From IMG/VR virus record IMGVR_UViG_3300035695_000001, positions 1-64,000 of that record: a stretch of DNA of 64,000 nucleotides. One strand, written 5' to 3'. How positions within the stretch are numbered: the first letter of the stretch is position 1; each line of letters begins with the position of its first letter. Of the stretch, positions 1,552 through 21,322 are shown in pieces. The DNA is from a virus. A program made the translations under genes and the position numbers. The notes below the pieces were generated by a model. That model was not told where the DNA came from. It did not search any database and saw only the letters and a program-made list of their open reading frames with translations.

Positions 1552-1579
1552 ACCCTCCGGCCTACCAGGCGCGGGGGGT
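1552..1579 (+). promoter_or_regulatory. Bulged leader hairpin 1 (first of a 16-member family)
   Basis: Lower stem ACCCTCCG/CGGGGGGT (one T-G pair), bulged G on the 3' side, upper stem GCCT/AGGC, loop ACC. It is preceded by GCGCAG and followed nine bases later by AGGAGG of the 1604 gene. The architecture (lower stem, 3'-side bulge, upper stem, tight loop, then Shine-Dalgarno) recurs upstream of most uncoupled genes to 21.3 kb, so I treat it as an RNA control or processing element rather than a plain terminator; there is no U-tract. Confidence 0.7.
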
Positions 1580-1603
1580 TCTTGCGTAGGAGGTGATCAC
1601 ACC

Positions 1604-2218
1604 ATGTCCAGCAGCAAGAAGGCCCGGCCGATGTCATCCGCGTCCCCCATGTCCCGCGTGCTGCCCCCGCCGCAGCGCAGACGCAAGAATGTGGTCGTGG
1701 AGGATGGCGGCGCGATCGTCCAAGTGAACACGCCGCTCGGGGTCGTGTACGTCAAGGCGGACACCATTTCGTCCGGACCCGGTGACGCCAGGCGCCGTGT
1801 GGAGGTCCGCGTCTCCAAGGACAGCGGCAACTTCCTCGCCAGCGAGAGCGCCACCACGCTGGCGATCCTCGACTACGACCCCACCACGCAAAGCGCTCCC
1901 GTCAAGGCTTGCGTCCTGACCCGAGAGACCTTCCTGGGCTTCGAGTGCGCCGGCTTCTACGCTCGCGTGAAGAGCCGCAACGACAACCGCGTGCGCGTCC
2001 GCACCTACAAGGACCCGCAGAGCGCCGTGACCTTCATGGCGCAGAGCGTCGGCCGGAGCCCGAACCTCACTGCCAGGACGACGGACGGCGACGTGCCCAT
2101 CCTCGACGGCAAGGGGGCGCTGCTGCCTGGCGCAGCGGACGCGCTGCGCTGCCTGCTGAACGATGACGAGGCCGCCCTGCTCGACCTCTTCGGGGTTGGG
2201 AAGCCGCCCAGCAAGTGA
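1604..2218 (+). CDS. Hypothetical protein, 204 aa
   Basis: I do not recognise the family. The start is set by AGGAGGTGATCACACC-ATG. After a Ser/Pro/Arg-rich first ~28 residues the protein looks like a compact mixed alpha/beta domain (GGAIVQVNTPLGVVYVKADTI, then alternating hydrophobic and charged strands) and ends in a short acidic helix. No signal peptide or transmembrane segment is seen. It is a single gene with its own bulged leader hairpin on each side, so it is probably regulated like its neighbours. Confidence 0.7.
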   Translation: MSSSKKARPMSSASPMSRVLPPPQRRRKNVVVEDGGAIVQVNTPLGVVYVKADTISSGPGDARRRVEVRVSKDSGNFLASESATTLAILDYDPTTQSAPVKACVLTRETFLGFECAGFYARVKSRNDNRVRVRTYKDPQSAVTFMAQSVGRSPNLTARTTDGDVPILDGKGALLPGAADALRCLLNDDEAALLDLFGVGKPPSK

Positions 2219-2225
2219 GCGCTCG

Positions 2226-2250
2226 CCCCGAGGCTTCCAAGCCGTCGGGG
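2226..2250 (+). promoter_or_regulatory. Bulged leader hairpin 2
   Basis: Lower stem CCCCGA/TCGGGG, bulged G at 2244, upper stem GGCT/AGCC, loop TCCA. It lies between the stop of the 1604 gene and the AAGGAGG of the 2275 gene. Confidence 0.75.
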
Positions 2251-2274
2251 CTGAGCCCGTGAAGGAGGTCAACC

Positions 2275-2883: not shown

Positions 2884-2891
2884 CAGCGCAC

Positions 2892-2920
2892 AGTCCGGGG
2901 GCCTCATGGCCCGCCGGGCT
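2892..2920 (+). promoter_or_regulatory. Bulged leader hairpin 3
   Basis: Lower stem AGTCCGG/CCGGGCT (one G-T pair), bulged G at 2913, upper stem GGGCC/GGCCC, loop TCAT. GCGCAC lies just 5'. It precedes the GGAAGGAG of the 2948 gene. Confidence 0.75.
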
Positions 2921-2947
2921 GCTGCCGTTGGAAGGAGCCACGTACCC

Positions 2948-3193
2948 ATGCGTCACGACTACGACCCCACGTCGATCCAGGACCCGGCAGCGCGCCGGGC
3001 AACCATCCTCGCCAGGGCCCGCGCCAAGGTCCGGCCCCCCGTCACGGTCGAGCAAGCGAGGGCCGCTACGGCTCTCCTGGCGGTCGCCCAGAGGTCTGGC
3101 GACCCCTCGGAGATCGAGGAGGCCGAGGCCCGCGAGCAGGCGACGTGGGAGGCGTTCGACGAGAGCGCCGAGCGGCCGAAGGAGGCAGCGTGA
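2948..3193 (+). CDS. Small hypothetical protein, 81 aa
   Basis: Starts at ATG behind GGAAGGAG. It is a short, highly charged, probably all-helical protein (ARRATILARARAKVRPPVTVEQARAATALLAVAQR split over two helices) ending in an acidic helix. Function unknown. Its TGA overlaps the GTG of the next gene by four bases, so the two are translationally coupled. Confidence 0.65.
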   Translation: MRHDYDPTSIQDPAARRATILARARAKVRPPVTVEQARAATALLAVAQRSGDPSEIEEAEAREQATWEAFDESAERPKEAA

Positions 3194-3914: not shown

Positions 3915-3925
3915 CGGAGCGCACA

Positions 3926-3953
3926 CCCCGGGGCTCATCGTGAGCTGCCGGGG
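3926..3953 (+). promoter_or_regulatory. Bulged leader hairpin 4, with a second small hairpin
   Basis: Lower stem CCCCGG/CCGGGG, bulged G at 3947, upper stem GGCTC/GAGCT, preceded by GCGCAC. A second stem, AGCCT-gt-AGGCT, follows before AGAAGGAG of the 4001 gene, giving a two-hairpin leader. Confidence 0.75.
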
Positions 3954-4000
3954 CTTCGTGCTGAGAGAGCCTGTAGGCTCAACCAGAAGGAGACGACCCC

Positions 4001-5077
4001 ATGTCATTCGACCCCAAGGCAGCGAAAGAGAAACTCGACAAGGCCATCCAGACCGGCGTGGCCCAAGCCAGCACCACGGTCCAGCGGGTGCTCAGCACCG
4101 TCCCGGAGGACGCGATCGTCCGGACCCGCTCGCTGGCGTGGGAGCCGCGGGAGCGGGACGTCGCCATCGTCTTCAACGGGCAGGCCCACCCCATCCACGA
4201 GCACGCCATGCGCCAGATCGGCGAGGTGGCCGGCATCCCCCGCGCTTACGTCGAGTCCCTCATGACCGAGGGCACCCCGCAGCAGCGCCGGGCCCTGCTC
4301 GCCCACAACCTCCGCGAGATGATGGCGGAGCAGCCGGAGACCAAGCGGCACCTCGTCCGCACGGTCGGCAACAGCGTCCGAGGCTTCCTGTCCGACTCCT
4401 ACCGGCGCCTCGACTCCCGCCCGCTGCTCTCCGCCTTCGTCGAGGAGGTGGATCGCTTCGGGGCCGTGCCCTACAGCGGCCGTGCCGGCGACGTCCGCTC
4501 GACGCTCAAGGCGATCATCCCGCGGGTCCTGATCGCTGGCGGCGACGCGGTCGCCTTCGGCCTCCAGTGGGAGAACAGCGACTTCGGCGCCGGGGCGCAC
4601 AGCATCCGGGCCTTCCTGCTCCGGCTCACCTGCCTGAATGGGGCCACGACGGAGGACAACCTCCGCCAGGTCCACCTGGGCAAGCGCTTGGAGGAGAGCA
4701 TCGAGTTCAGCGCGAAGACGCTTGCTCTCGACACGCAGGCCAACGTCTCGGCGCTCCGAGACGTCGTCAAGGCGGCGCTCCTCCCGGCCAAGATCGACAG
4801 CCTCATCGCCCGCATCGACGCCGCGCAGGCCAAGGAGGTGAACTGGGGCGGACTGAAGACCAGGCTCGCCAAGGCGCTGAACAAGGGCGAGATGACGGCG
4901 GCCGAGACCGCCTTCCTCGGGCCCGACGTCGAGAACCTCCCCCCCGCCCCGACGCTGTGGCGGGCCAGCAACGCCCTGTCGTGGATCGCCAAGACGGCGA
5001 CGCCCGACCGGGCCCTGGAGTTGGAGAAGCTCGCGGGCGGGATCCTGGAGAACAAGATCGTCGCCGAGGCCGCGTAG
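4001..5077 (+). CDS. DUF932-like protein, 358 aa
   Basis: The central region NSVRGFLSDSYRRLDSRPLL, followed by a beta-rich part and LRLTCLNGA, matches the pattern of DUF932/phage-plasmid-like proteins (TIGR03299-related). Length is in the family's usual range. No enzymatic motif is known for this family, which is common in phages and mobile elements. The C-terminal ~120 residues are helical. The start is fixed by AGAAGGAG and the two-hairpin leader upstream. Confidence 0.75.
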   Translation: MSFDPKAAKEKLDKAIQTGVAQASTTVQRVLSTVPEDAIVRTRSLAWEPRERDVAIVFNGQAHPIHEHAMRQIGEVAGIPRAYVESLMTEGTPQQRRALLAHNLREMMAEQPETKRHLVRTVGNSVRGFLSDSYRRLDSRPLLSAFVEEVDRFGAVPYSGRAGDVRSTLKAIIPRVLIAGGDAVAFGLQWENSDFGAGAHSIRAFLLRLTCLNGATTEDNLRQVHLGKRLEESIEFSAKTLALDTQANVSALRDVVKAALLPAKIDSLIARIDAAQAKEVNWGGLKTRLAKALNKGEMTAAETAFLGPDVENLPPAPTLWRASNALSWIAKTATPDRALELEKLAGGILENKIVAEAA

Positions 5078-5111
5078 CCTCCCGCCCTCCTGATCGATGA
5101 GTACGGCGCAC

Positions 5112-5140
5112 ACCCCGGGGGCTCCACAGCCCTGCGGGGT
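5112..5140 (+). promoter_or_regulatory. Bulged leader hairpin 5
   Basis: Lower stem ACCCCG/CGGGGT, bulged G at 5134, upper stem GGGGCT/AGCCCT (one G-T pair), loop CCAC, preceded by GCGCAC and followed by TAGGAGG of the 5166 gene. Confidence 0.8.
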
Positions 5141-5165
5141 TGTGGCCGTGTAGGAGGTTCACACC

Positions 5166-6164
5166 ATGACGACCACGACGACCGACAAGACCGACCCGCG
5201 CATCGACAAGGCCCGCAAGATGTTCGCCGAGCGGTGGATCCTGGCCCTGTGCTACGGCACTCAGGCTCCCCTCACGCTGACGGACCACGACTCCGGCTGG
5301 CGGGACATCGAGAGGCACGCCGGCAAGCGCAGAGCGCTGCTCAAGGTGCTCGTCGAGATGGGCTACATCTGGCGCAACGGAGACAAGGACCAGATCACCG
5401 ACAAGGGATTCGCGGAGTCCTTCCTCGACTCCGGCTCGGTCGACTTCTCCCACTTCGTCCCCGAGGGCAAGTCGGTGTGGGAGTACGAGCACGAGGTCAG
5501 GCCCGGGAGCTTCTTCGACTCCGACGGGCTCCCGCTCGGCGTTCGGTGCTTCATCGCCGCCCACCACGACCGCTTCCAGTTCTTCGACTGGGACCCGTAC
5601 ACCAAGCGAGGCACGCCGATCGCCTTCGGTTCCTTCGCCAAGAAGGAGTCGAGCCACAGCATCCTGGTCGCCGACGCGGCCTACACGGCGAAGTTGACCG
5701 CCGAGAAGGACGCCGCGCAGTTCCGGGAGGTCTCCGGCGCCAACCTCGCGCACGGGATGGTGAAGATGGGCTACGCCGAAGAGGCCACCAAGCACGTCTT
5801 CCGGAACGGCAAGCACGACGGCCCCTTCGGCGTCCTGCGATTCGGCACCGACCCGAAGCAGTGGCAGGCGGAGAGCGCCGCCAGGCAGGAGAAGATCCGG
5901 AAGGAGATCGTCGCACTCGCCGAGGAGTTGACCGCCCTGGAGTACGCCGAGAACAAGATGCTCCTCGCCGCTGGGGTCGAGAAGACGCTCTCCCAGGGCG
6001 TCACGGAGGAGGACCGCACGAAGGCGTGGGGCATCTTCCTCGCCGACTACGAGCGGGAGGTCCGGGAGCAGATCGCCAAGCAGAAGGCGTTCGAGGCACA
6101 GCAAGCGGCGGCGGGGTCCATCGACGAGGGCTGCGTGGACGCCAGCCGACGCCGGGAGCAGTAG
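5166..6164 (+). CDS. Hypothetical protein, 332 aa, winged-helix-like N-terminus
   Basis: Starts at ATG behind TAGGAGG. Residues ~15-85 (RWILALCYG through LLKVLVEMGYIWRNGDKDQITDKG) look like a winged-helix unit, but this is pattern reading only. The middle ~100 residues are aromatic-rich (HDRFQFFDWDPYTKRG). Residues ~230-320 form a long charged helix, probably a coiled coil. Function unknown; a DNA- or protein-binding role would fit. Confidence 0.7.
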   Translation: MTTTTTDKTDPRIDKARKMFAERWILALCYGTQAPLTLTDHDSGWRDIERHAGKRRALLKVLVEMGYIWRNGDKDQITDKGFAESFLDSGSVDFSHFVPEGKSVWEYEHEVRPGSFFDSDGLPLGVRCFIAAHHDRFQFFDWDPYTKRGTPIAFGSFAKKESSHSILVADAAYTAKLTAEKDAAQFREVSGANLAHGMVKMGYAEEATKHVFRNGKHDGPFGVLRFGTDPKQWQAESAARQEKIRKEIVALAEELTALEYAENKMLLAAGVEKTLSQGVTEEDRTKAWGIFLADYEREVREQIAKQKAFEAQQAAAGSIDEGCVDASRRREQ

Positions 6165-6172
6165 CAGCGCAC

Positions 6173-6204
6173 AGCCGGGGCCTCCTACAAGTGGGCGCCC
6201 GGCT
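6173..6204 (+). promoter_or_regulatory. Bulged leader hairpin 6, with a second hairpin abutting the SD
   Basis: Lower stem AGCCGGG/CCCGGCT, bulged G at 6197, upper stem GCC/GGC with a longer loop, preceded by GCGCAC. A second stem, TGCGAG-ccgtaa-CTCGCA, ends directly at GGAGGAG of the 6243 gene and could affect ribosome access. Confidence 0.75.
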
Positions 6205-6242
6205 TCGCCGTTGCGAGCCGTAACTCGCAGGAGGAGACCAGC

Positions 6243-6872
6243 ATGGATCAGATGGTGGACGAGGTGACGGAGCAGCCCAAGAGCAACGGGATCACGGTGA
6301 CCGTCGAGGGGGTCGACATCCTGCCCGGGTGGGAGGGCCGCGTCTCCTGGGCCGGCAGCTACCGCTGGCTCAAGATCGTCGGGCACTTCGAGCACGCGGT
6401 CGAGGAGGTCGGCATGACCTTCCGCCTGGACATGCACTCGGAGTACAGCGGGATCCGGTGCGACTTCTCGGAGACCCACGACGGCAGCAAGGAGGACGGG
6501 GACAAACTCTGGCAGGCCACCTGGGGCACCGACGGCTTCGTCGCCCTCTCGTACGCGACCCCGCCGCCCCCGAAGATCGCCGCCATCCTCCACGCGAAGG
6601 CCAAGGCCGCCTTCGACGCCTACGAGCGGCCCCTGCTTGCCCGGTACACCGACACCTGCATGGCCATGCTCGACGCCGACCAGTACGACCGCGCGGCGAC
6701 GCGGGACCGGGACCTGGCCTGCAACATCCTGCGGGAGTTCCGCAAGGCCACCAGACCCAAGCCCGCCGAGCCGGACGAGGACGAGGAGCCCAAGCGGGTG
6801 TCCCCCGCCCAGGCGTTCGTCGACCTGACCGGGCTCCCCGTGGGGCTGCCCGCGGGCGAGGCGGAGGCGTAG
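6243..6872 (+). CDS. Hypothetical protein, 209 aa
   Basis: Unrecognised. The N-terminal ~110 residues are beta-rich (ITVTVEGVDILPGWEGRVSW). The middle is helical, with MAMLDADQYDRAATRDRDL, and the tail is acidic and proline-rich. No membrane segment. It is the last gene before the first TGTCTAGCA repeat pair at 6902, which I take as the end of a transcription block. Confidence 0.65.
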   Translation: MDQMVDEVTEQPKSNGITVTVEGVDILPGWEGRVSWAGSYRWLKIVGHFEHAVEEVGMTFRLDMHSEYSGIRCDFSETHDGSKEDGDKLWQATWGTDGFVALSYATPPPPKIAAILHAKAKAAFDAYERPLLARYTDTCMAMLDADQYDRAATRDRDLACNILREFRKATRPKPAEPDEDEEPKRVSPAQAFVDLTGLPVGLPAGEAEA

Positions 6873-6901
6873 CGGTTCTCCCGCAACCGAACGATCCAGA
6901 T

Positions 6902-6929
6902 TGTCTAGCAGTGCCTCAAGTGCTAGACA
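6902..6929. promoter_or_regulatory. Repeat pair TGTCTAGCA-N10-TGCTAGACA (candidate operator/promoter 1)
   Basis: Perfect inverted 9-mers spaced by 10 bases, followed by GTGACCAGG, then leader hairpin 7. The same 9-mer recurs at block boundaries throughout the window. Symmetry suggests a dimeric DNA-binding protein; a phage-specific promoter is the alternative. Confidence 0.7.
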
Positions 6930-6943
6930 GTGACCAGGCGCAC

Positions 6944-6972
6944 GACCCCGGCTCTACCAAGAGCGCGGGGTC
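6944..6972 (+). promoter_or_regulatory. Bulged leader hairpin 7, with a second hairpin
   Basis: The cleanest copy: lower stem GACCCCG/CGGGGTC, bulged G at 6965, upper stem GCTCT/AGAGC, loop ACCA, GCGCAC just 5'. A second stem, GGGGA-ccaga-TCCCC, precedes AGGAGG of the 7015 gene. Confidence 0.85.
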
Positions 6973-7014
6973 GTGGCGTTGCCGGGGACCAGATCCCCGC
7001 AGGAGGATCCTACG

Positions 7015-7392
7015 ATGGGCATGACGAAGAGAGACATGCTGCTGCTCCGCGCCGAGTTCCCGGCGCGCCCTGGACTGCTGCCGTTCGGCGTCGTCCTCTA
7101 CTTCCAGCCGGCACGACCGAGCGTGTCGATCAACGAGCAGCTCCAGGACGTGCTGGATGGCAAGGGCAAGTTCATCGTCCACGACGAGCGGCACTGCGAC
7201 GGCGAGAACGCTGGCGAGATCGCCTACGACAACGGCTCGTACTTCGAGCGCCCCGCCGACGATCGCGCGTATGCCAACGCCTACAAGGAGTTCCGGCGGC
7301 GGGTGGACAAGCACCTCGCCGACTGCGACAACGACGCCAAGGCCGAGGTCAACCCCATCGAGCGGATCCTCCGCTACCGGGGGTCGCGGTGA
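7015..7392 (+). CDS. Hypothetical protein, 125 aa
   Basis: ATG chosen because it follows CAGGAGGATCCTACG. Beta-rich N-terminus (FGVVLYFQPARPSVSI), a middle region IVHDERHCDGENAG, and a helical C-terminus. Family unknown. First gene of a five-gene coupled chain that runs to 8942. Confidence 0.6.
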   Translation: MGMTKRDMLLLRAEFPARPGLLPFGVVLYFQPARPSVSINEQLQDVLDGKGKFIVHDERHCDGENAGEIAYDNGSYFERPADDRAYANAYKEFRRRVDKHLADCDNDAKAEVNPIERILRYRGSR

Positions 7393-8946: not shown

Positions 8947-9153
8947 ATGAAGGACATGACCGACATCATCCTGCCTGGCATGCGGATCTCTCGCGTGGCT
9001 GAGATCCTTTGCGCCAACGCTCCGGCCCGTGCCGAGGTCAACACGGTCACCATGCGGGCGCGCTACGCCACCACCAAGCCCGCCGACGTGGCGGAGCAGT
9101 ACCGCAGGGCTATGCGCGCCAAGTACTCACAGAATCCGGGCCGTGGATTCTGA
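8947..9153 (+). CDS. Small hypothetical protein, 68 aa
   Basis: Starts four bases after the preceding stop, with GAAGGAG inside the end of the previous gene as likely ribosome site. Helical with basic C-terminal half (ADVAEQYRRAMRAKYSQ). Function unknown. Confidence 0.55.
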   Translation: MKDMTDIILPGMRISRVAEILCANAPARAEVNTVTMRARYATTKPADVAEQYRRAMRAKYSQNPGRGF

Positions 9154-9162
9154 GACGCGACC

Positions 9163-9189
9163 ACCCCGGGGGCTTCGGCCTTCCGGGGT
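9163..9189 (+). promoter_or_regulatory. Bulged leader hairpin 8 (UUCG loop)
   Basis: Lower stem ACCCCGG/CCGGGGT, bulged T at 9182, upper stem GGGC/GCCT, loop TTCG, a very stable tetraloop. Precedes GAAGGAG of the 9214 gene. Confidence 0.8.
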
Positions 9190-9213
9190 CTGGCCGTTGA
9201 AGGAGACCACCAC

Positions 9214-10032
9214 ATGACGACCAACCCCGCGCCCGCCCCCATGGCGCTCGACGGCCTCAAGATCACCCTCGACGGCTCCCCCCGGGGGCCCACCCTCGTG
9301 CTCCGGACCGGCCAGTACGACACCGGAAGGCTGGCGGTCTTCGCCATGTGCGAGGACGGAGAGCCGTACGGCACGCTGACCGTCCACCTGCCCGACGACC
9401 CGATCGAGGCTGGCCTCATCCACGTCAAGACGTGGGGCGGCAACCAGCCGATGGCGCATGGGGCGCTCGCTTCCGGAGCCTTCGAGGACACCGGAAAGCG
9501 CGTGAAGACCGGCCACGTCGAGGCCCAGGTGTGGCGCGTGCTCGCCACCCTGCCAGCGGGGGTGACCACGCTCGGGTCGAGCCGGCTCCTCGCCGTGCTC
9601 GCCGAGTACAAGATTCCCACGGAGCAGGTCACCCCTTTCCTGCTCAAGATGGCGGAGGACCACGAGCGCAGGTACGGGGGCATGGTCAACAGCGGGCACG
9701 GGAACGTCAACAAAGCGGAGTGCTGGCGCCTGCTCGACACCTGGCTCGGCGTGAAGACGAAGGCGGACGCCCCGGCCACGATCACGCCCCGTGAGGCGTC
9801 CGAGGTCATCGACGCCCTCACGTCCGGCGACTACGACGCCGTGGTCGTGGCCTTCGGTGGAACCGTGCCGGAGGAGCCGGACTACGACTGCGACGACATC
9901 CCCCGGTTCAACATCCCGGAGGACCCGGAACTGGCGGCGATCCTCGCCGACCTGGACGAGGATGCCGGTCCCGAGGGGAGCGACACGCCGCCGCTCGCGC
10001 TGCCGACCCCGGATGGCACCAAGATGCCGTGA
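9214..10032 (+). CDS. DUF4313-like protein, 272 aa
   Basis: Residues ~30-110 follow the DUF4313 pattern: a beta region with LAVFAMCEDGEPYGTLTVHL, then IEAGLIHVKTWGGNQPM and GKRVKTGHVEAQVW. That family is found on plasmids and phages and has no known biochemical activity. The C-terminal ~150 residues are a separate region, helical and then acidic/proline-rich. Own bulged leader on both sides. Confidence 0.65.
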   Translation: MTTNPAPAPMALDGLKITLDGSPRGPTLVLRTGQYDTGRLAVFAMCEDGEPYGTLTVHLPDDPIEAGLIHVKTWGGNQPMAHGALASGAFEDTGKRVKTGHVEAQVWRVLATLPAGVTTLGSSRLLAVLAEYKIPTEQVTPFLLKMAEDHERRYGGMVNSGHGNVNKAECWRLLDTWLGVKTKADAPATITPREASEVIDALTSGDYDAVVVAFGGTVPEEPDYDCDDIPRFNIPEDPELAAILADLDEDAGPEGSDTPPLALPTPDGTKMP

Positions 10033-10041
10033 ACTGCGAGT

Positions 10042-10068
10042 AGCCGCCGCCCATCTGGGTTGGCGGCT
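10042..10068 (+). promoter_or_regulatory. Bulged leader hairpin 9
   Basis: Lower stem AGCCGCC/GGCGGCT, bulged T at 10061, upper stem GCCC/GGGT, loop ATCT. Different lower-stem sequence from the others but compensated, which supports an RNA structure. Precedes GGAGGA of the 10088 gene. Confidence 0.75.
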
Positions 10069-10087
10069 CTCAGCGTTGGAGGAACCA

Positions 10088-10396
10088 ATGCCCGACAAAA
10101 ACGATCCCTACGTCGAGAACTACCCCAACCTTCTCAACTGGCTGACGAAGCACGGCGCCGTCCGCATGGTGGCGATGCCTGTCGGTGAGCTTGGGAAATC
10201 GACGGGTCACCGTATCGAGTGCTGGCGGTTCAAGAACAACAACATGGCGATCGTCGCGATCTATGGGGATCAGCGCGGCTGGGACATCTTCACCGCCAAC
10301 GATGGGGGCGACAGTACCAGCCGGAAGACCTTCACCGACGCGGAGGCCAGACTCGGGCTCAAGCGTGTCATCCGCAGCAAGAGTAAGGCGTCGTGA
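10088..10396 (+). CDS. Hypothetical protein, 102 aa
   Basis: Starts at ATG behind TTGGAGGAACC. Small alpha/beta protein with HRIECWRFKNNNMAIVAIYG in the middle and a basic end. Not recognised. Coupled by GTGA to the HTH gene that follows. Confidence 0.6.
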   Translation: MPDKNDPYVENYPNLLNWLTKHGAVRMVAMPVGELGKSTGHRIECWRFKNNNMAIVAIYGDQRGWDIFTANDGGDSTSRKTFTDAEARLGLKRVIRSKSKAS

Positions 10397-12331: not shown

Positions 12332-12351
12332 GTGACCAGGACGACGCGCAC

Positions 12352-12377
12352 ACCCCGAGCCGCAAGGCTGTCGGGGT
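12352..12377 (+). promoter_or_regulatory. Bulged leader hairpin 10 (GNRA loop), with a second hairpin
   Basis: Lower stem ACCCCGA/TCGGGGT, two-base TG bulge, upper stem GCC/GGC, loop GCAA (a GNRA tetraloop), preceded by GCGCAC. A second stem, GGCGGC-ttgt-GCCGCC, lies just before GGAGAGGA of the 12419 gene. Confidence 0.8.
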
Positions 12378-12418
12378 CGTGGCGTTGAGGCGGCTTGTGC
12401 CGCCGGAGAGGATCCGCC

Positions 12419-12721
12419 ATGGGAGACAAATTCAGCATCAACGTCGGCCCCGGTTGCGTCATCGGAGCCACAGCGATCGGGCCTGGGGCCACCGCCCACG
12501 GCTCCGTCACCGTCGGGGGCCCGCCAACCGATCGGGGGGAGCGCCTGCGGGCAACGCTCGACGTCAGGGGCGCCACATCGCACCGGGACCTGGCCGACCT
12601 CCTGGAGCAGGCCGCCATCGCCATCCGGAAGGCTGGACCGGGCGGCAAGGTCGGCGCCATCGGCTCCGTCACCGGCGACGCCACCCACGGCATCGCCTGG
12701 ACCATCGACAAGGACAACTGA
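12419..12721 (+). CDS. Hypothetical glycine-rich protein, 100 aa
   Basis: Starts at ATG after GGAGAGGATCCGCC. N-terminal ~40 residues are Gly/Ala/Thr-rich (GPGCVIGATAIGPGATAHG), suggesting short beta turns. The middle DLADLLEQAAIAIRKAG is a clear amphipathic helix. Function unknown. Confidence 0.55.
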   Translation: MGDKFSINVGPGCVIGATAIGPGATAHGSVTVGGPPTDRGERLRATLDVRGATSHRDLADLLEQAAIAIRKAGPGGKVGAIGSVTGDATHGIAWTIDKDN

Positions 12722-12739
12722 CCACACGGTCCGGCGCAC

Positions 12740-12768
12740 GCCTCGGGGACCTTCGGGTCTGCCGAGGC
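12740..12768 (+). promoter_or_regulatory. Bulged leader hairpin 11 (UUCG loop)
   Basis: Lower stem GCCTCGG/CCGAGGC, bulged G at 12761, upper stem GGACC/GGTCT, loop TTCG, preceded by GCGCAC, followed by TGGCGTCGTAGGAGG. Nearly identical flanks to hairpin 12. Confidence 0.85.
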
Positions 12769-12790
12769 TGGCGTCGTAGGAGGCATCACC

Positions 12791-13264
12791 ATGCAGAGCA
12801 GATACATGGCGGCACGGCCGCAACAATTCTTCGACCCGTCGGTCGACTACAACGCCGAGAAGGTCACCGAGCGCCTGCGCTTGGCACTGGCGGTCCTCGC
12901 CGACGTCCCGGCTGGCAACGTGGTGGGCGAGGAGCACACGTCAGCGCTCGTCGTCGCTCACGATGCGCTCATCAGCGTCGCGGAGTTCTTCCCGAGCGTC
13001 GAGTGCTGGTGCGTGGTGAAGCACTACGCCAGCCACGACGAAGACCCGACCGACCCGTGGAACCCGACCGTCTGGTGCGCCTTCACGACGGAGGCCCAGG
13101 CCCGCGCGTTCGGCCCTGCGATCGAAGACCACTACGGCAATGAAGCCAAGCGGCGCGGAGGGCGACGCGACCGCTTCGTCGTGGAGCGAGCGGCGTGCAA
13201 GGTGACCCAGATCCTGCGGCCCGACCTGGCCGCCGAGGACTACGTGAAGAGGCTCGGGTCGTGA
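12791..13264 (+). CDS. Hypothetical protein, 157 aa
   Basis: Starts at ATG behind GTAGGAGGCATCACC. Helical N-terminal half, then FFPSVECWCVVKHYASHDED and a C-terminal region with VVERAACKVTQIL. No recognised domain. Coupled by GTGA to the next gene. Confidence 0.6.
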   Translation: MQSRYMAARPQQFFDPSVDYNAEKVTERLRLALAVLADVPAGNVVGEEHTSALVVAHDALISVAEFFPSVECWCVVKHYASHDEDPTDPWNPTVWCAFTTEAQARAFGPAIEDHYGNEAKRRGGRRDRFVVERAACKVTQILRPDLAAEDYVKRLGS

Positions 13265-13530
13265 GCGCCGACGTGACCCGCGAGAGGGAGGCCCTCTTCA
13301 CGCTGGCGACTGGCAAGAGCCCGAACGAGGCGCCAGAAGCATGGAGGAAGTTCTTCGATGGCTTCACCGAGTTCGCCAAGAACTACCGCAACCGGGCGCT
13401 GAGCGACGCGCAAGAGGCGGTCTGCAAGTACCAGCCGATCCCGACGGAGGACATGAAGCCGGCCTACCGCCGTGGCTTCGAGGACACCCGCGCCGCGTGC
13501 GGGCTCGCCGTGCTGGAACTCAAGTCGTAG
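13261..13530 (+). CDS. Small hypothetical protein, 89 aa
   Basis: GTG start overlapping the upstream stop. All-helical and charged; contains AWRKFFDGFTEFAKNYRNRA and KPAYRRGFEDTRAACG. Family unknown. Confidence 0.6.
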   Translation: MSADVTREREALFTLATGKSPNEAPEAWRKFFDGFTEFAKNYRNRALSDAQEAVCKYQPIPTEDMKPAYRRGFEDTRAACGLAVLELKS

Positions 13531-13537
13531 GGCGCAC

Positions 13538-13566
13538 GCCTCGGGAGCCTTCTGGCTTGCCGAGGC
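13538..13566 (+). promoter_or_regulatory. Bulged leader hairpin 12
   Basis: Lower stem GCCTCGG/CCGAGGC identical to hairpin 11, bulged G at 13559, but upper stem GAGCC/GGCTT and loop TTCT differ and co-vary with it. Followed by TGGCGTCGTAGGAGG. Confidence 0.85.
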
Positions 13567-13586
13567 TGGCGTCGTAGGAGGTGACC

Positions 13587-14054
13587 ATGGAGACGTTCAA
13601 GGAAGTCCTGGCGCGGTGCAGGCTGGGCAACGGACCGTCGCAAGAGGACGACCCGGAGGACTGGGACGAGAGCGGGCGGGACACGCGCTGCGCCATCTGC
13701 CGCGACGAGATGTGCATCTGCGGCAACTGCTACGACTGCGAGCACGACACCGACGAACGACACGGCTGGTCCCCGTTGACGACGGAGTACCTGGAGGACG
13801 GCAGGACGCGCCCCTGGCGCAACGGCAAGGGTCGGTACGTGATCAAGGACCGCGACGACGGGCGCTACATCGGTCGGGAGCTGGATGGCGGCACGCCCGC
13901 GATCCAGTGCTGGCCTAGCAGGCTCACGCGCCACGTCATGCACTTCCGAACGAGGAGCGCCGCGCAGAAGTACATCGACGACGGCAAGACTGGGTTCCCG
14001 AAGCACGAGCACAGCGTCCGCCGTGTGCGAGCGCTGAAGAAGGTCACGAAGTGA
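13587..14054 (+). CDS. Cys-rich zinc-binding-like protein, 155 aa
   Basis: ATG 13587 is preferred over the GTG two codons earlier because AGGAGGTGACC-ATG gives better spacing. Residues ~35-55 hold CAICRDEMCICGNCYDCE, a dense cysteine cluster suited to one or two zinc ions. The second half is basic (TRHVMHFRTRSAAQKYIDDG). Function unknown. Coupled to the next gene by GTGA. Confidence 0.65.
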   Translation: METFKEVLARCRLGNGPSQEDDPEDWDESGRDTRCAICRDEMCICGNCYDCEHDTDERHGWSPLTTEYLEDGRTRPWRNGKGRYVIKDRDDGRYIGRELDGGTPAIQCWPSRLTRHVMHFRTRSAAQKYIDDGKTGFPKHEHSVRRVRALKKVTK

Positions 14055-15134: not shown

Positions 15135-15156
15135 CCGATCCGGCTGGCGTTCGTGG

Positions 15157-15185: not shown

Positions 15186-15192
15186 GTGGAGA

Positions 15193-15215
15193 GCGCTGGG
15201 CATGGTCCCAGGCGC
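15193..15215 (+). promoter_or_regulatory. Short variant of the bulged leader hairpin (16th copy)
   Basis: Lower stem only GCG/CGC, bulged G at 15212, upper stem CTGGG/CCCAG, loop CATGGT. Same 3'-side bulge and same position just before AAGGAG of the SSB gene, but a much shorter lower stem. Confidence 0.5.
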
Positions 15216-15227
15216 AAGGAGATCAGC

Positions 15228-15803
15228 ATGATCGCTGTGGTTGTGGTGGGGAACGTGGGCAACTTCGAGGTCCGGTACACGGGCGACGGGACGCCGATCC
15301 TGTCCCTCTCGGTCGCGAGCAACGGCCGGGAGAAGATCCACGGCGAGTGGAAGGACGTCGCCACCTGGGTCAAGTGCTCCTGGTTCGGGAAGAGGGCGGA
15401 GAACTTCGGCAGCCTGGTCCAGAAGGGCTCCACCGTCGTGGTGCGGGGGAACCTCACCCTCGGGTCCTTCCAGGGTCGTGACGGGCAGACCAGAACCAGC
15501 CTGGAGTGCCGGGTCGACGACATCGACTTCGCCGGCCCGAAGCGCCAGGACGGCGGAGGAGAGCACGCGCCGGCCCCGCAAGGACAGGGCGGCCAGCGCC
15601 CGCAGGGGCAGCGGCAGGCGCCTGCCACTGGTGGCGGCGGGTACCAGCGGCGGCCCGAGCCGGCGGCAGCACCTCCACCGGCGGCTGGTGGTGGCGACGA
15701 CTACACCGGAGACGTGGACCCCGACGAGGACATTCCTTTCGCCTCATGCTCGATGAGCCACGACCCCATCCTGCGCTCCATGCGTTGGGTTCGCTTCCCC
15801 TGA
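15228..15803 (+). CDS. ssb: Single-stranded DNA-binding protein
   Basis: Residues ~1-105 are an OB-fold SSB domain: VVVVGNVGNFEVRYTGDGT, ILSLSVASNG, ATWVKCSWFGKRAE, VVVRGNLTLGSFQGRDGQ. A Gly/Gln/Pro-rich linker leads to the acidic tip DPDEDIPF that normally ends SSBs and recruits partner proteins. Here about 20 further residues follow (ASCSMSHDPILRSMRWVRFP), so the tip is internal. Binds ssDNA during replication and recombination. Sits directly upstream of the tRNA and the Sak4-like ATPase, a typical partner. Confidence 0.93.
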   Translation: MIAVVVVGNVGNFEVRYTGDGTPILSLSVASNGREKIHGEWKDVATWVKCSWFGKRAENFGSLVQKGSTVVVRGNLTLGSFQGRDGQTRTSLECRVDDIDFAGPKRQDGGGEHAPAPQGQGGQRPQGQRQAPATGGGGYQRRPEPAAAPPPAAGGGDDYTGDVDPDEDIPFASCSMSHDPILRSMRWVRFP

Positions 15804-15836
15804 CATGGGACCGAGCCGGCGGTCATCCCGGCACAC

Positions 15837-15909
15837 CGAGGGATAGCCTAGGTGGATAGGCACCAGTTTTGGGTACTGGTCCACGCGAGTTCGACCCTCG
15901 CTCCCTCGA
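15837..15909 (+). tRNA. tRNA-Pro (anticodon UGG)
   Basis: Folds fully: acceptor CGAGGGA/TCCCTCG, D stem GCCT/AGGC, anticodon stem CCAGT/ACTGG with loop TTTGGGT (anticodon TGG at 15870-15872), five-base variable loop, T stem GCGAG/CTCGC with loop TTCGACC, discriminator A. The 3' CCA is not encoded, so it must be added after transcription. It reads proline codon CCA (and CCG by wobble). It lies between SSB and the recombination ATPase and overlaps no supported gene. Confidence 0.95.
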
Positions 15910-15949
15910 CGAAGAAACGGCGGCGCAGACGCGCTGCCAGGAGGACATC

Positions 15950-17683
15950 ATGGCGCAGCAGAGCAGGTTCACCGCAGCGAGTGTCAGCACTGGCCCGGAT
16001 CGGTCGCCGATGAAGACGATCGTCACCGGCAACTCAGGGGACGGCAAGACGTTCTTCGTCTCCACGATCGTGGACTCCAACGGAGGTCCGATCTTCTTCA
16101 TGCCGGTCGAGGAGGGGGCCAAGGGCATGTGCCCGGACGCGAGCCCGGCCGGCTTCCGGCGCGGCGACACCTGGCTCGCTCCGCGCGACCTCCCGGACTT
16201 CTACGACATGCTCGACGCCTTCCTGCACGAGGTCAACGTTCCCGTGGACGTGGAGGGTCCGGATGGCAAGCCGGTGAAGCGCCGCCCCTACCGGCACCTC
16301 GGCGTCGACAGCCTCACTGGGCTGGAGAGGCTGGTCCACCAGTCAGTCTGCCAGATCGAGCAGGTGGGCAACATGGAGGCGAAGGAGTACGGCAAGGTGT
16401 GGAGGGCCGCTGTGCCTGTGTGGCAGGGGGTCCAGAACAAGCTCGACGAGATCCGCCGGAGCGGCGTCAACCTCTGGATCATCGCGCACGCGACCGAGTC
16501 CATCGACGCGAGCGACACCGGGCAGGTGTTCCGGAAGCAGGACATCATGCTCTCCGGGTCTGGCAAGACCCTCGTCGAGGCGCAGCACCTCTGGCGTGGC
16601 TGGACGGACAACGTGTTCTTCCTTCTGAAGAAGGTGAAGGTCACGGCCGGGTCCAAGACGACGCGGGCGATGGCCAAACTCGGCGGGCGCGTGATCGTCA
16701 CCACGGACAACGGCCGGATCTACGCCAAGACCAGGCACGCGCTGCCCCCCGAGATCCCGGCGACGTGGCCGGACCTCCAGCGGGCGCTCAAGGCGGGGAT
16801 GTCGGTCAAGCCGGCCGAGGTCCAGAAGCAGGTGGCCGCGATCCTGCCCAAGTTGGAGCCGGACGACGCGGCACTGATCTCCGCGGACTTGGCCTTGGCC
16901 AAGAGCCCGAGCCAGTTGGCCGCCGTGCTCTCCCGCGCGCAGGGGATGCTCCTCGTGGACCTGGACGATGAGGCTCCGGAGGAGGAACCCAAGCCGGCGC
17001 CGACGAAGCAACCGCAGTATTCGGAGGCACGCCCGCACCCGCTCAGCGCGCCCTCGGACGATGGCGAGGAGGTCCCGCAGTCGGCGCGCCCGCAGGCTCA
17101 GCCTGTCCGTCCAAAGCCGGCCGCCGAGCCTCCTATCCCTCCGCCGCCCGAGAGCCAGCCCTGGGCCGATCCGCCCAAGGCACCTCGCACCCTCGGCGAG
17201 GCGGTCAGCACGGCGGTCGCCGCCGGCATCCTGGCAGCAGAGGCGAAGGACGCCGAGGCGTACAAGGCCGCCAAACTGGGCCTGGTCGCCTACTTCGACG
17301 CGAACAACATCCCGCAGGCCCGGCGTGACCTCGCCGTCGCGCAGTTCAAGGAGCGGGTGGCGCTCGTCGTCGGGCCGAAGGCTGCCCATGGCCCCGTCCA
17401 GCCCGCGGGGCGCCCGACCATGCCCGAGGCAGCGGCGCCGCCCCGCACCGACGGCGATGGGAACCGCTCGGCGGTCTCTCCCCCGCCTCCTACCCCGCGT
17501 CCGGCGAACGGCTCCCAGCAACGGCACGAGCAGCACGGGCCACCGACCCCGCGCTCCGCCCCGTCCACGGCGCTGGCCCCCGAGGACGAGGCCACCCTCT
17601 TCGGCAAGGACCGGCAGCGGCCCGGCAAGGTGGCGCCACAGGAACCGCCGGCCAGGAACCCCGACGATCCCGAAGACTACTGA
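15950..17683 (+). CDS. Sak4-like RecA-type recombination ATPase, 577 aa
   Basis: ATG 15950 behind CAGGAGGACATC is chosen; an earlier in-frame ATG lies inside the tRNA. Walker A is GNSGDGKT (~residue 28), Walker B-like HLGVDSLTG (~residue 118), and LWIIAHATES fits the sensor strand. This is the P-loop (AAA_24) layout of phage Sak4 single-strand annealing proteins, which act with SSB. Unusually long: about 300 residues beyond the ATPase, Pro/Ala-rich with a helical segment near residues 420-490, probably partner-binding. Neighbouring ssb supports the role. Confidence 0.8.
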   Translation: MAQQSRFTAASVSTGPDRSPMKTIVTGNSGDGKTFFVSTIVDSNGGPIFFMPVEEGAKGMCPDASPAGFRRGDTWLAPRDLPDFYDMLDAFLHEVNVPVDVEGPDGKPVKRRPYRHLGVDSLTGLERLVHQSVCQIEQVGNMEAKEYGKVWRAAVPVWQGVQNKLDEIRRSGVNLWIIAHATESIDASDTGQVFRKQDIMLSGSGKTLVEAQHLWRGWTDNVFFLLKKVKVTAGSKTTRAMAKLGGRVIVTTDNGRIYAKTRHALPPEIPATWPDLQRALKAGMSVKPAEVQKQVAAILPKLEPDDAALISADLALAKSPSQLAAVLSRAQGMLLVDLDDEAPEEEPKPAPTKQPQYSEARPHPLSAPSDDGEEVPQSARPQAQPVRPKPAAEPPIPPPPESQPWADPPKAPRTLGEAVSTAVAAGILAAEAKDAEAYKAAKLGLVAYFDANNIPQARRDLAVAQFKERVALVVGPKAAHGPVQPAGRPTMPEAAAPPRTDGDGNRSAVSPPPPTPRPANGSQQRHEQHGPPTPRSAPSTALAPEDEATLFGKDRQRPGKVAPQEPPARNPDDPEDY

Positions 17684-17702
17684 CCAGAGCAGGACCAGCG
17701 GC

Positions 17703-17731
17703 AGCCCACCCTCCAACCGGAGCGGTGGGCT
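17703..17731 (+). promoter_or_regulatory. Bulged leader hairpin 13
   Basis: Lower stem AGCCCACC/GGTGGGCT, bulged C at 17723, upper stem CTCC/GGAG, loop AACC. It ends in TTTCGCG and so could also pause polymerase. Precedes GGAGG of the 17749 gene. Confidence 0.75.
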
Positions 17732-17748
17732 TTCGCGTCGGAGGCAAC

Positions 17749-18072
17749 ATGAGCGGACCGTACAAGGTGTGGGCTGTCCACCGGAACAACGATGAGCGCA
17801 ACCACGGTCCCGTCACGGACCTGTGCTCGCACGAGGCTCTGGCCACGCAGGTCTCGAAGGGCAGCGGGTGGTACGGCGGGGACGCGCCAGTCGTGGAGCG
17901 CTGGGCCGTCAACGTACACGGGCAGACGTTCCTGCTCGACCCGGCCACCAAGGGGGAGCCTGTCACCATCGCCAGGAACCTCGACGAGGTCCACCTCTCG
18001 CAGGAGGAGACCGTACGGAAAGCAGCGCTGGCGAAGTTGACGCCCGCGGAACGGAAGGCACTGGGTCTGTAG
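17749..18072 (+). CDS. Hypothetical protein, 107 aa
   Basis: ATG chosen after TCGGAGGCAAC; an ATG eight codons earlier lies inside the hairpin. Small alpha/beta protein (YKVWAVHRNNDERNHG at the start, helical end with EETVRKAALAKLTPAERKAL). Not recognised. Confidence 0.6.
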   Translation: MSGPYKVWAVHRNNDERNHGPVTDLCSHEALATQVSKGSGWYGGDAPVVERWAVNVHGQTFLLDPATKGEPVTIARNLDEVHLSQEETVRKAALAKLTPAERKALGL

Positions 18073-18083
18073 GACACTGCGCA

Positions 18084-18112
18084 GACCCCATGGGCTTCGG
18101 CTTGCTGGGGTC
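18084..18112 (+). promoter_or_regulatory. Bulged leader hairpin 14 (UUCG loop)
   Basis: Lower stem GACCCCA/TGGGGTC, bulged C at 18105, upper stem TGGGC/GCTTG (several G-T pairs), loop TTCG, GCGCAG just 5'. Precedes TTGGGAGG of the 18132 gene. Confidence 0.75.
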
Positions 18113-18131
18113 GCGTCCTTGGGAGGTACCG

Positions 18132-18650
18132 ATGAACGGCACGTACGACAGCAAGGCGAAGAAGACCGAGGTCATCCGCGCGATCCTGGTGGCGCTCCAC
18201 CAGATCAAGGGCTGGGAGCACGCCCGCGAGGGGTCGCGAGACGGGAGCCGCTGGATCGACTTCGGCGAGAGGATCTGCGTCGGCATCCACCTGGAGTCCC
18301 CGACGCACGGCACGCCCCGGTGGCGGCTCCAGATCGAGCGATTCGGCGGGCAGTGGTTCCACGAGAAGAAGGGCACCGGCTTCGACTACCCAGGCATCGC
18401 CCAAGCATGCATCGACCTGGTGGCGAGGCGGAGGGCCGAGAGAACTGAGGAGGACCGTCGCGCCGCTCTCCAGGACCAGGCCAATGAGATGGCCCTCAAG
18501 CACGGCGTCGCCATCCCGCTCTCGGTCCGGGAGGAGGGTGGCCGGATCGTGCTCTCCATGCGGGCCAGGCCCGTGACCGAGGAGCAAGTGGAGGCGATGA
18601 CCAAGGCGGCTCGGGCCTGCGGGCTGATCCTGCCGGACGCGGAGGAGTAG
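18132..18650 (+). CDS. Hypothetical protein, 172 aa
   Basis: Starts at ATG after GGGAGGTACCG. N-terminal half alpha/beta (EVIRAILVALHQIKGWEHAR, WRLQIERFGGQWF); C-terminal half a charged helix then a small beta-alpha unit (VEAMTKAARACGLIL). Family not recognised. Confidence 0.6.
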   Translation: MNGTYDSKAKKTEVIRAILVALHQIKGWEHAREGSRDGSRWIDFGERICVGIHLESPTHGTPRWRLQIERFGGQWFHEKKGTGFDYPGIAQACIDLVARRRAERTEEDRRAALQDQANEMALKHGVAIPLSVREEGGRIVLSMRARPVTEEQVEAMTKAARACGLILPDAEE

Positions 18651-18653
18651 GCG

Positions 18654-19442: not shown

Positions 19443-19693
19443 ACCTCGACGACGCTACCCTCGCCAAACTGCACCGCGACCAGACCGAGGCGGTGGTCGC
19501 CTGGCTGGAGACCAACCGCTCCGAGTGGGACACGGAGCCTGGGAACGACCGCGAGTCGCCGGCTCACTCTCGGAACTGGCTCCTCTCGTCCTTGTCCGCG
19601 TTCAAGTCGATGCTCGCACGCGGCAAGTTCAAGCTGACCGACCCACAGATCAAGTGGGTCCGCGACGTCGCCGAGCGATGCAACATCACCTGA
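19439..19693 (+). CDS. Small hypothetical protein, 84 aa
   Basis: GTG start, GTGA overlap with the 18654 gene. Helical; contains FKSMLARGKFKLTDPQIKWV. Its stop codon directly abuts the insertion element, so the element may have separated it from a former downstream partner. Confidence 0.6.
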   Translation: MNLDDATLAKLHRDQTEAVVAWLETNRSEWDTEPGNDRESPAHSRNWLLSSLSAFKSMLARGKFKLTDPQIKWVRDVAERCNIT

Positions 19694-20957
19694 TCTCCAG
19701 CGCGGAAGCCCCCGCCTCGGCTCTTGCCAGGCGGTGGAGGAAGCGCTGCTCCGTCCTTCGGGTTGATGTTCGTGTCTTAGACGTGGTACGCCTAGGATCG
19801 TGAAGTTGGTCGCCACCGTCAAGTTGCTCGTGGACGCGGAGCAGAAGGCTCGGCTCCTGGCGACGATGGCCAGGGTGAACGAGGCGTGCGACTGGCTCGC
19901 CGAGCGGGCATTCAGCCTCCAGACCGCCGACAAGTTGCGCCTCCAGAAACTCTACTACCGCGAACTGCGCGACCGCTTCGGCCTCTCCGCCCAGCATGTG
20001 GTCCGCCTGATCTCCAAGGTCTGCGAGGTCTACAAGCGCGACAAGAGCAAGCGCTGCCGCTTCAAGCCGCACGGTGCGATTCCGCTGGACCAGCGGCTCT
20101 ACAGCTTCAAAAACGGGCTCGACCGCGTCAGCATCCTCGCGATCGACGGACGCATCATCGTTCCATGCGCGATCGGGGCCTACCATGCTGGGCGACTCGA
20201 CGGCGCCCGCGGGCAGGCCGACTTGGTCTACCGCAAAGGGGCGTTGTACCTCTTCGTCAGCGTCGAGGTCCCCGATGGCAGCCCCATCGACCTGGAGGGC
20301 TGGCTTGGGGTCGACCTCGGCATCCGTAACTTGGCCGTCGACTCGGATGGCGAGGCACACTCGGGCGAGGAGACGCTCCGCGTTCGATCGCGCATCGCGA
20401 AGCTCCGTGCTGGCCTGCAACGAGCCGGGACGAAGAGCGCGAAGCGGCACATCCGTAAGCTCCGAAGGAGGGAGCAGGGCTTCCACGCCCACAAGAACCA
20501 CGTCATCAGCAAGCACATCGTCCGCAAGGCCAAAGACACCGGGCGCGGGATCGCAGTGGAAGACCTCCACGGCATCCGCGACCGGGTAACGGTTAGGAAG
20601 GCCCAGCGGAGCGCGCTGCACGGCTGGTCGTTCGCGCAGTTGCGCGGGTTCCTCACGTACAAGGCCAGGCTCTCGGGCGTGGCGCTTGTGGCTGTGGACC
20701 CTCGGAACACATCGCGGACGTGCCCGTCTTGCGGCTGCGTCGACAAGCGGAACCGGCCAAGCCAGGCGGGCTTCCGCTGCATCGGTTGCGGTTTTGAGGG
20801 GAACGCCGACCACGTCGGCGCCAGAAACATCGCGACCAGGGCCGTCGTAGTCCGGCCCATCGTAGGGGCTGTCAGGTTGGGTATCGTGCATCTAGCGAGT
20901 CCTCGACCATGCCACCTGCAAAGCCCCAACCTCGCCGCTGCGGCAGGTGGGGGTTGA
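19694..20957 (+). mobile_element. TnpB-only IS200/IS605-type element
   Basis: The tnpB-like gene is bracketed by imperfect palindromes. On the left, AGCGC...CCCCGCCT/AGGCGGTGG...GCGCT spans 19699-19747; on the right, CCACCTGC/GCAGGTGG spans 20912-20950 and overlaps the gene's 3' end. TTGAT occurs downstream of the left palindrome (about 19762) and at the right end (20954). No TnpA transposase is present, so movement would need one in trans. Exact ends are uncertain. In this family the 3' end of tnpB plus the right end usually encodes the guide (omega) RNA. Confidence 0.65.
19800..20957 (+). CDS. tnpB: TnpB-family RNA-guided nuclease (IS605 OrfB-like), 385 aa
   Basis: All catalytic parts are visible: RuvC-I Asp in GVDLGIRNLAV (~residue 178), RuvC-II Glu in GIAVEDLHGIRDR (~residue 258), a four-Cys zinc ribbon CPSCG...CIGCG (~residues 305-327), and RuvC-III Asp in NADHVGARNIA (~residue 331). 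Length 385 aa is normal for TnpB. Members cut DNA next to a short TAM using an RNA made from the element's right end, helping the element persist. GTG start. Nothing looks inactivated. Confidence 0.9.
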   Translation: MKLVATVKLLVDAEQKARLLATMARVNEACDWLAERAFSLQTADKLRLQKLYYRELRDRFGLSAQHVVRLISKVCEVYKRDKSKRCRFKPHGAIPLDQRLYSFKNGLDRVSILAIDGRIIVPCAIGAYHAGRLDGARGQADLVYRKGALYLFVSVEVPDGSPIDLEGWLGVDLGIRNLAVDSDGEAHSGEETLRVRSRIAKLRAGLQRAGTKSAKRHIRKLRRREQGFHAHKNHVISKHIVRKAKDTGRGIAVEDLHGIRDRVTVRKAQRSALHGWSFAQLRGFLTYKARLSGVALVAVDPRNTSRTCPSCGCVDKRNRPSQAGFRCIGCGFEGNADHVGARNIATRAVVVRPIVGAVRLGIVHLASPRPCHLQSPNLAAAAGGG

Positions 20958-21052
20958 TTACCATCCCGCAGCCACCTGTCCCGAGGGGCCGCGACGTCAG
21001 GCTGGCCTTCGAGGGGAAGCCGCTACCGATGAAGCCACCAGGGAGGAGATGA
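20954..21052 (+). pseudogene. Possible RusA N-terminal remnant, ~32 codons
   Basis: From a TTG that overlaps the tnpB stop (TTGA), the frame reads ITIPQPPVPRGR followed by AFEGKPLPMKPP and stops at TGA 21050-21052, overlapping the next ATG. The opening resembles the first residues of RusA-type Holliday junction resolvases (typically TIPG-P-PVPKGRPR). It is far too short for an active enzyme and sits at the insertion's right edge, so it is probably a remnant; a genuine small peptide is the alternative. Confidence 0.35.
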
Positions 21053-21288
21053 TGGTCCAACTCTACATCGTGGCGAGCCAGGACAGGGCCGCGCAGGTCC
21101 CCAAGGCCGGCAAGGCGCGGGGGCTCGTCCTGGCCGAGAACGCACTGAGCAGGCGGGAGGATCGGACCCGGCCACCGCTCCCGCTCGACAGAGCGCAGAG
21201 GGTCGCCGACGCTCTCAACCGTGCCCACCAAGAGGATGGGCGCCAGCACTGGGTCGAGCCGTGGACGGCCCCGCAGGATCGGAACTGA
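21052..21288 (+). CDS. Small hypothetical protein, 78 aa
   Basis: Starts at the second of two adjacent ATGs after GGGAGGAG. Contains VQLYIVASQDRAAQV at the N-terminus and LPLDRAQRVADALNRAHQ as a helix. Unknown. This is the first intact phage gene after the insertion element. Confidence 0.5.
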   Translation: MVQLYIVASQDRAAQVPKAGKARGLVLAENALSRREDRTRPPLPLDRAQRVADALNRAHQEDGRQHWVEPWTAPQDRN

Positions 21289-21294
21289 GCGCAC

Positions 21295-21322
21295 ACCCGA
21301 GGGCCATGGTGGTCGCTCGGGT
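21295..21322 (+). promoter_or_regulatory. Bulged leader hairpin 15 (last of the family)
   Basis: Lower stem ACCCGAG/CTCGGGT, bulged G at 21315, upper stem GGCCA/TGGTC, loop TGG, preceded by GCGCAC and followed by GTGCCGTGAGAGAGGAG of the 21347 gene. No further copy was seen to the right. Confidence 0.8.

Follow-up and report, generated by a model that had tools for sequence, protein, structure and literature searches.

A family of bulged hairpins, with strong signs of an RNA-level function, at the uncoupled gene starts of one block in two uncultured phages

In one gene block of an uncultured tailed phage, a repeated bulged hairpin stands just upstream of most genes that are not translationally coupled to the preceding one, and our analyses strongly support that it functions as RNA. 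The stretch analysed (hereafter the window) corresponds to bases 1-64000 of the 162,811-base virus record IMGVR_UViG_3300035695_000001, and the 15 hairpins that a preliminary description had reported there were all recovered by reading and folding, at the same positions and with the same design. We propose that these hairpins form one family of cis-acting RNA elements, which a long, co-directional and probably early transcript carries in its intercistronic leaders; a role as shared translational operator, one per translational unit, is the likeliest single reading, held with a confidence just short of even. The initial observation is confirmed and extended by our results, and its interpretation is partly supported.

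Reading from the 5' end, the element consists of GCG, one further nucleotide (N), 9 nt, an upper hairpin of 3-7 bp, one bulged G, 12-13 nt, CGU and, usually 0-6 nt further, the Shine-Dalgarno sequence (SD). The loops are short and variable in sequence, often UUCG or GNRA-like, and the stem from the bulge to the GCG/CGU end covers about one helical turn, its sequence being free provided that pairing is kept. Fixed parts were counted over 58 copies, 36 from the window's phage and 22 from a second phage presented below. In 53 of them (31/36 in the window's phage, 22/22 in the second), the bulge is a lone G on the 3' side; in 49 (27/36 and 22/22), exactly 9 nt separate GCGN from the top of the lower stem; and in 48 (31/36 and 17/22), CGU lies 12 or 13 nt past the bulge, the base after CGU being variable and often making CGUG. 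Since the contiguous lower stem ranges from 6 to 13 bp, these distances are not a by-product of a fixed stem length. The outer GCG/CGU part at a fixed distance from the bulge had been missed before; the counts already given for the window agree with ours, with GCGCA(C/G) just 5' of eleven hairpins, a UUCG loop in three, a GCAA loop in one, and a bulge that is usually G (10/15 copies). GCG and CGU are able to pair (G-U, C-G and G-C), and this outer stem is supported in the window's phage by a permutation test of flank pairing (p about 0.001). The presence of GCG, bulged G and CGU at fixed distances speaks for specific recognition rather than for a stabiliser with a mechanical role only, and such recognition-like parts, carried by freely varying stems, suggest a trans-acting factor.

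In the 36 copies of the window's phage, all ten modelled pairs show compensatory changes. The covariation score of their alignment (A1) was 0.557 compared with 0.219 in shuffles, a value reached by 0 of 500 shuffles, and it fell to less than half when the pairing partner was shifted by one column. As this set consists mostly of paralogues, a second test was based on the count of G-T versus A-C oppositions in the stem cores, with a fitting score that gave both equal weight. The G-T:A-C ratio was 24:0 in the window's phage and 14:0 in the second phage, giving 38 G-U and no A-C overall; a double-stranded DNA dyad gives no ground for such a G-T bias, which argues for RNA. When the 61 copies of both phages were aligned, 92% of the cells paired and the covariation score reached 0.680 versus 0.227 in shuffles (0/500 reaching it), in an alignment that was fitted to the model and is therefore biased towards it. 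The bulge on one strand only and the strict orientation with the genes are in agreement with a function at the RNA level. Selection on RNA structure, as claimed in the preliminary description, is thus borne out by the covariation of every modelled pair, by the use of G-U without A-C and by the retention of the hairpin in a distant relative. The Rfam comparison that it had suggested gave no covering family: with Rfam 15 at gathering cut-offs, no family matched the hairpins of the window or of the second-phage block, and down to E 1 the element regions gave only tRNA and sub-threshold chance matches. By the evidence at hand, the element is to be regarded as a new structured RNA family.

The first 127 bases of the record recur as its last 127, and this terminal repeat indicates that the ends join and that the 148.9-162.3 kb stretch is contiguous with the left edge of the window. 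A descriptor scan of the record found, besides the 15 hairpins of the window, 24 others at 148.9-162.3 kb with the same design and the same flanks, for a total of about 39-40 in a single co-directional block of about 35 kb, all on one strand. The earlier statement that the family is confined to 1.5-21.3 kb therefore holds within the window and fails for the record. A covariance model (R1) built from the 36 copies detected 39 copies in the record at E<0.01, every one on the plus strand and inside the block; two of them, at about 161948 and 153271, were newly revealed, and the copy at 153012, a perfect long stem without bulge that had been seen earlier and kept out of the training, was recovered. 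Applied to the second phage, on which it was not trained, R1 found 22 copies at E<0.01, all on the plus strand, at 91.9-117.0 kb. Together, these matches exclude chance.

The second phage (IMGVR_UViG_3300010396_000002, 155,559 bases) was the only contig with two matches in a second scan of viral sequences with an element-derived pattern. Matches to about 77 proteins of the first phage can be recognised in it, most of them 30-65% identical (65% for the terminase and 53% for the portal), and DNA similarity is weak and covers only about 18 kb. The two uncultured phages are distantly related and their blocks are related. The first genes of both blocks are orthologous (52% identity) and have kept their hairpin, the lower stem being unchanged and the upper stem changed and compensated. 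Among the proteins of the record, families for tail sheath, baseplate wedge, portal, terminase and helicase were found, which identifies a tailed phage. No close relative and no near DNA to the window's phage was found in the cultured phage collection. Protein searches of IMG/VR with the products of the gene at 4001 and with the portal, Sak4-like and PHAX proteins gave no or only remote relatives, and the helicase led to two megaphages, both without elements. The first DNA pattern selected 48 contigs with chance matches only, including L022, whose 33.7 bits come from a single, pattern-selected match; among bacterial and archaeal genomes, a pattern scan picked out 45 contigs, of which L159 ranked highest with a single match of 27.6 bits. 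The element is absent from Tunturi_5, MW202476 and LR745208.

The placement of the element follows translational coupling. With genes called by our own codon model, for which start counts could shift by a few, the element stands at 37/42 uncoupled starts and 0/21 coupled starts of the block in the window's phage, at 0/68 uncoupled starts outside the block in the same record, and at 22/27 uncoupled and 0/18 coupled starts in the block of the second phage. It occupies the intercistronic gap, a typical copy beginning 5-18 nt past the preceding stop codon and about 50 nt upstream of the start codon, which leaves little room for a promoter. The uncoupled starts without an element are two in a low-coding stretch near 11.8-12.1 kb, a TnpB-like insertion, the gene behind this insertion, and the start at 15950, located after a tRNA-Pro; the exceptions named previously (11771, 15950 preceded by a tRNA, and the insertion) were thus recovered with independent gene calls.

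All the window elements are on the plus strand. Those with a bulged G occupy 1542-1592 (5' of gene 1604-2218), 2215-2265 (gene 2275-2883; outer CTC/GAG pairing), 2882-2934 (gene 2948-3193, head of coupled genes to 3914), 3915-3968 (gene 4001-5077), 5102-5154 (gene 5166-6164; top model score, 53.6 bits), 6163-6217 (gene 6243-6872), 6934-6985 (gene 7015-7392, head of coupled genes to 9153), 12730-12782 (gene 12791-13264; UUCG loop), 13528-13580 (gene 13587-14054, head of coupled genes to 15134) and, last of the block, 21285-21336 (gene 21347-21538). The bulge is a U (T in the DNA) in the copies 9163 (9153-9203, 5' of gene 9214-10032; UUCG loop) and 10042 (10032-10082, gene 10088-10396; outer GAG/CTC pairing), a C in the copies 17703 (17694-17744, gene 17749-18072) and 18084 (18075-18125, gene 18132-18650; UUCG loop), and UG in the copy 12352 (12340-12391, gene 12419-12721; GCAA loop). 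The short variant at 15193-15219, 5' of the ssb gene 15228-15803, had been counted as a member; the hairpin is present but unmatched by R1 at E<=1, and its membership is doubtful. A tRNA-Pro(UGG) at 15837-15910 (plus strand) takes the place of the expected hairpin before gene 15950-17683. The TnpB-like open reading frame (19800-20957), assigned by inspection, interrupts the block, and the next gene also lacks an element.

In six copies, CGU and the SD are separated by a second hairpin (window 3926, 6173, 6941 and 12352; record 150510 and 151511), and in the last two this second hairpin again has CGUAGAAAGGA after it. About 45 half-sites TGTCTAGCA/TGCTAGACA are spread across the record and often form pairs, inverted or direct, at 20-25 bp (for example window 6902/6921, 12300/12323, 15157/15177 and 45245/45269). 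Three of these pairs lie immediately upstream of hairpins, one being that of the element 6934-6985; they are absent from the second phage and are a possible phage promoter or operator. At record 153831-154013 (L006:9831-10013), an element is followed by ATG-CAT-TAA, then by the next element 140 nt further, and this region resembles what is left of a lost gene. A 59-nt stretch that is 86% identical between the two phages (record 148593-148651, L006:4593-4651; second phage L179:9536-9594) sits in a 1.4-1.8-kb non-coding leader, about 260-330 nt upstream of the first hairpin; it is possibly a structured RNA, its folding signal being inconsistent and its Rfam search giving no match. Near the end of the block, window 21535-22233 encodes a nucleotidyltransferase with a poly(A) polymerase/CCA-adding head domain (PF01743, 9.9e-06). 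Elsewhere in the record, a LexA-type DNA-binding domain is encoded at 97212-97403.

In the shared operator that we favour, the bulged G and the GCG/CGU end would be recognised by a factor acting in trans, most probably an RNA-binding protein of the phage or of the host. As the SD lies right beside the end of the site, binding would set the access of the ribosome to that start. Translationally coupled downstream genes would follow their leader gene, which would account for the presence of a single element in each translational unit and its absence from coupled starts; the block would form one post-transcriptional regulon, either repressed or activated by the binding. Judged from sequence signs, the operator appears to account best for the element-free coupled genes and for the fixed recognition parts.

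A candidate partner of the hairpins could be a protein with a rare PHAX-type RNA-binding domain, a domain known from eukaryotic RNA export. Such a protein is encoded on the minus strand in both phages, at record 134575-135348 (L005:10578-11348) and at 88379-89134 of the second phage (L179:6382-7134), with domain matches of 25.8 and 41.7 bits in the two hairpin phages (cut-off 25), and the domain was found in 0/5 element-free phages and 0/14 control genomes. This is a weak lead only, and the AlphaFold prediction of the protein (mean pLDDT 44.5) is too poor to use. In its boldest form, the proposal would have each translational unit of the block preceded by an RNA operator and all these operators read by an RNA-binding protein dedicated to them, which might be the PHAX-domain protein acting as a phage counterpart on the hairpins, so that the whole block is switched together as a post-transcriptional regulon; we regard this full version as quite doubtful. 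If it were true, a single factor would control the block post-transcriptionally, and PHAX would have a phage counterpart acting on hairpins. Finding the trans factor would reveal a new post-transcriptional way to switch a phage gene block, could provide an orthogonal RNA-protein pair for synthetic biology, and would perhaps give the first function of a PHAX-type domain outside eukaryotes. The approximately 60 natural variants, with their compensated stems and near-invariant recognition parts, represent a ready mutational data set showing which bases matter.

Several points weigh against the operator and its candidate partner. The trans factor is one that we infer from the hairpins, and the early timing of the block is deduced from genome layout only. 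In the second phage, the outer pairing is at p 0.36 (permutation) when flanks strictly outside the fitted stem are considered and at p 0.005 once part of the lower stem is counted, so that the evidence for GCG/CGU there is fixed position, not covariation. The PHAX match is partial (profile positions about 20-70 of 84), its gene sits outside the hairpin block, its absence from five unrelated phages is weak evidence, and PHAX-type domains are not known to read a bulged hairpin. Finally, a processing endonuclease would leave an identical pattern.

Processing of the messenger RNA is the main rival, rather unlikely in our estimation. An endoribonuclease, of the phage or of the host, would cut at or near the base of each hairpin and split the long transcript, each new 5' end consisting of a hairpin then an SD, in the manner of the T7 early RNase III sites or of tRNA-punctuated transcripts. 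The location of the elements between genes of the same direction, 5-18 nt past the upstream stop codon, agrees with such punctuation, and fixed distances from bulge to base would suit a nuclease measuring from the bulge. Processing also explains the exception at 15950, as the element-free uncoupled gene 15950-17683 follows a tRNA, itself a processing signal; however, this is one instance. None of the phage proteins scanned could be assigned to an RNase family (for the non-block proteins, among the best 25 of 27 families), and the bulged helix, of about 10 bp plus 3-7 bp, is short for classic RNase III processing.

An unlikely third explanation is a mechanical insulator or messenger RNA stabiliser with no specific partner, which would shield the start, block 5'-to-3' decay or keep the SD single-stranded. 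The hairpins are very stable, with UUCG/GNRA loops, and stand beside the SD; in folding computations, the stretch from SD to AUG was slightly less open once the element was shuffled (p 0.002), whereas the SD itself did not gain significantly in openness from the native element (p 0.10), and a simple model in which the element keeps the SD open received little support. Such a role needs neither the bulged G nor GCG and CGU at set distances, and the uncoupled genes elsewhere in the same genome manage without the element (0/68). A purely mechanical role explains neither the fixed recognition parts and the element-free coupled genes nor the tRNA exception.

A pausing or antitermination element acting in cis on RNA polymerase is very improbable. 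A nascent-RNA hairpin followed by a conserved CGU at a fixed distance, often CGUG, would be suitable, but the base after CGU is not fixed, and known antitermination sites stand at the start of an operon and not at every unit. Terminators were also rejected, since no U-run was found and no terminator-like match coincides with an element; the attenuator role once suggested for the hairpins is not supported, for the same reasons. The least credible explanation is a DNA-level element (operator, promoter dyad, ESAS-like repeat, or REP/IS200-IS605-type single-stranded DNA hairpin): repeated inverted repeats upstream of genes are reminiscent of the ESAS of cluster K phages and a TnpB-like open reading frame lies inside the block, but the stem cores have 38 G-T and no A-C, the bulge is on one strand only, every copy is gene-oriented at a fixed distance to the start, the stem sequences are not conserved, the block shows no excess of sigma-70-like promoters (1 site in 20 kb versus 0.7 expected, away from the elements), SAS is not enriched, and both phages lack a Y1 transposase. 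REP/RAYT or IS200/IS605 hairpins were rejected specifically, as neither phage has a PF01797 (Y1) match and the stems differ.

As far as the searched literature and Rfam show, repeated cis-acting hairpins at most starts of a genome block are undescribed for DNA phages, and several known systems can be compared with them. The operators bound by the coat proteins of RNA phages (MS2/R17, PP7) are hairpins with one bulged base by the ribosome site; the MS2-type operator is present in a single copy, with a bulged A on the 5' side, and the protein reads loop bases. The hairpins described here number about 60, bulge a 3' G, leave the loop free and fix the GCG/CGU end; with the bulge on the other strand and variable loops, they are not MS2-type operators, and the likeness mentioned in the preliminary description is an analogy at most, as it had said. 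The T7 early intercistronic RNase III sites and the T4 intercistronic UUCG hairpins lie between genes of a polycistronic phage transcript. Our hairpins share this position and, in several copies, the UUCG loop, but those of T4 and T7 are not known to accompany every uncoupled start or to have fixed sequence parts spaced regularly from a bulge. In T4 RegA/RegB, one phage factor likewise acts at the translation starts of many early genes; the RegA sites are however unstructured and A+U-rich, RegB cuts GGAG, and neither employs a structured hairpin family (PMC3014915).

By position, the nearest published analogue is the ESAS of cluster K mycobacteriophages, where SAS/ESAS occur in many copies per genome upstream of non-structural genes set apart from their neighbour, nearly all in gene orientation, with an inverted repeat upstream of the ribosome site and an unproven role (PMC3203893, PMC11373665, PMC12699233). 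Both systems thus have many gene-oriented inverted repeats upstream of separated genes. The sequence of the ESAS repeats is conserved, and a later interpretation took them for SigA-like promoters that contain a DNA inverted repeat (PMC11373665). The 17-bp inverted repeat of conserved sequence was rejected as a description of our elements, whose stems differ and covary, as was an embedded SigA-like promoter, the lone sigma-70-like site in 20 kb not being at an element; the 13-bp SAS GGGATAGGAGCCC, which in cluster K adjoins the start codon, has 5 matches in the window (<=2 mismatches) versus 2.5 expected, none at an element. Unlike ESAS, the hairpins described here are not accompanied by SAS, directly follow the previous stop codon, vary and covary in their stems, use G-U pairs and bulge a 3' G.

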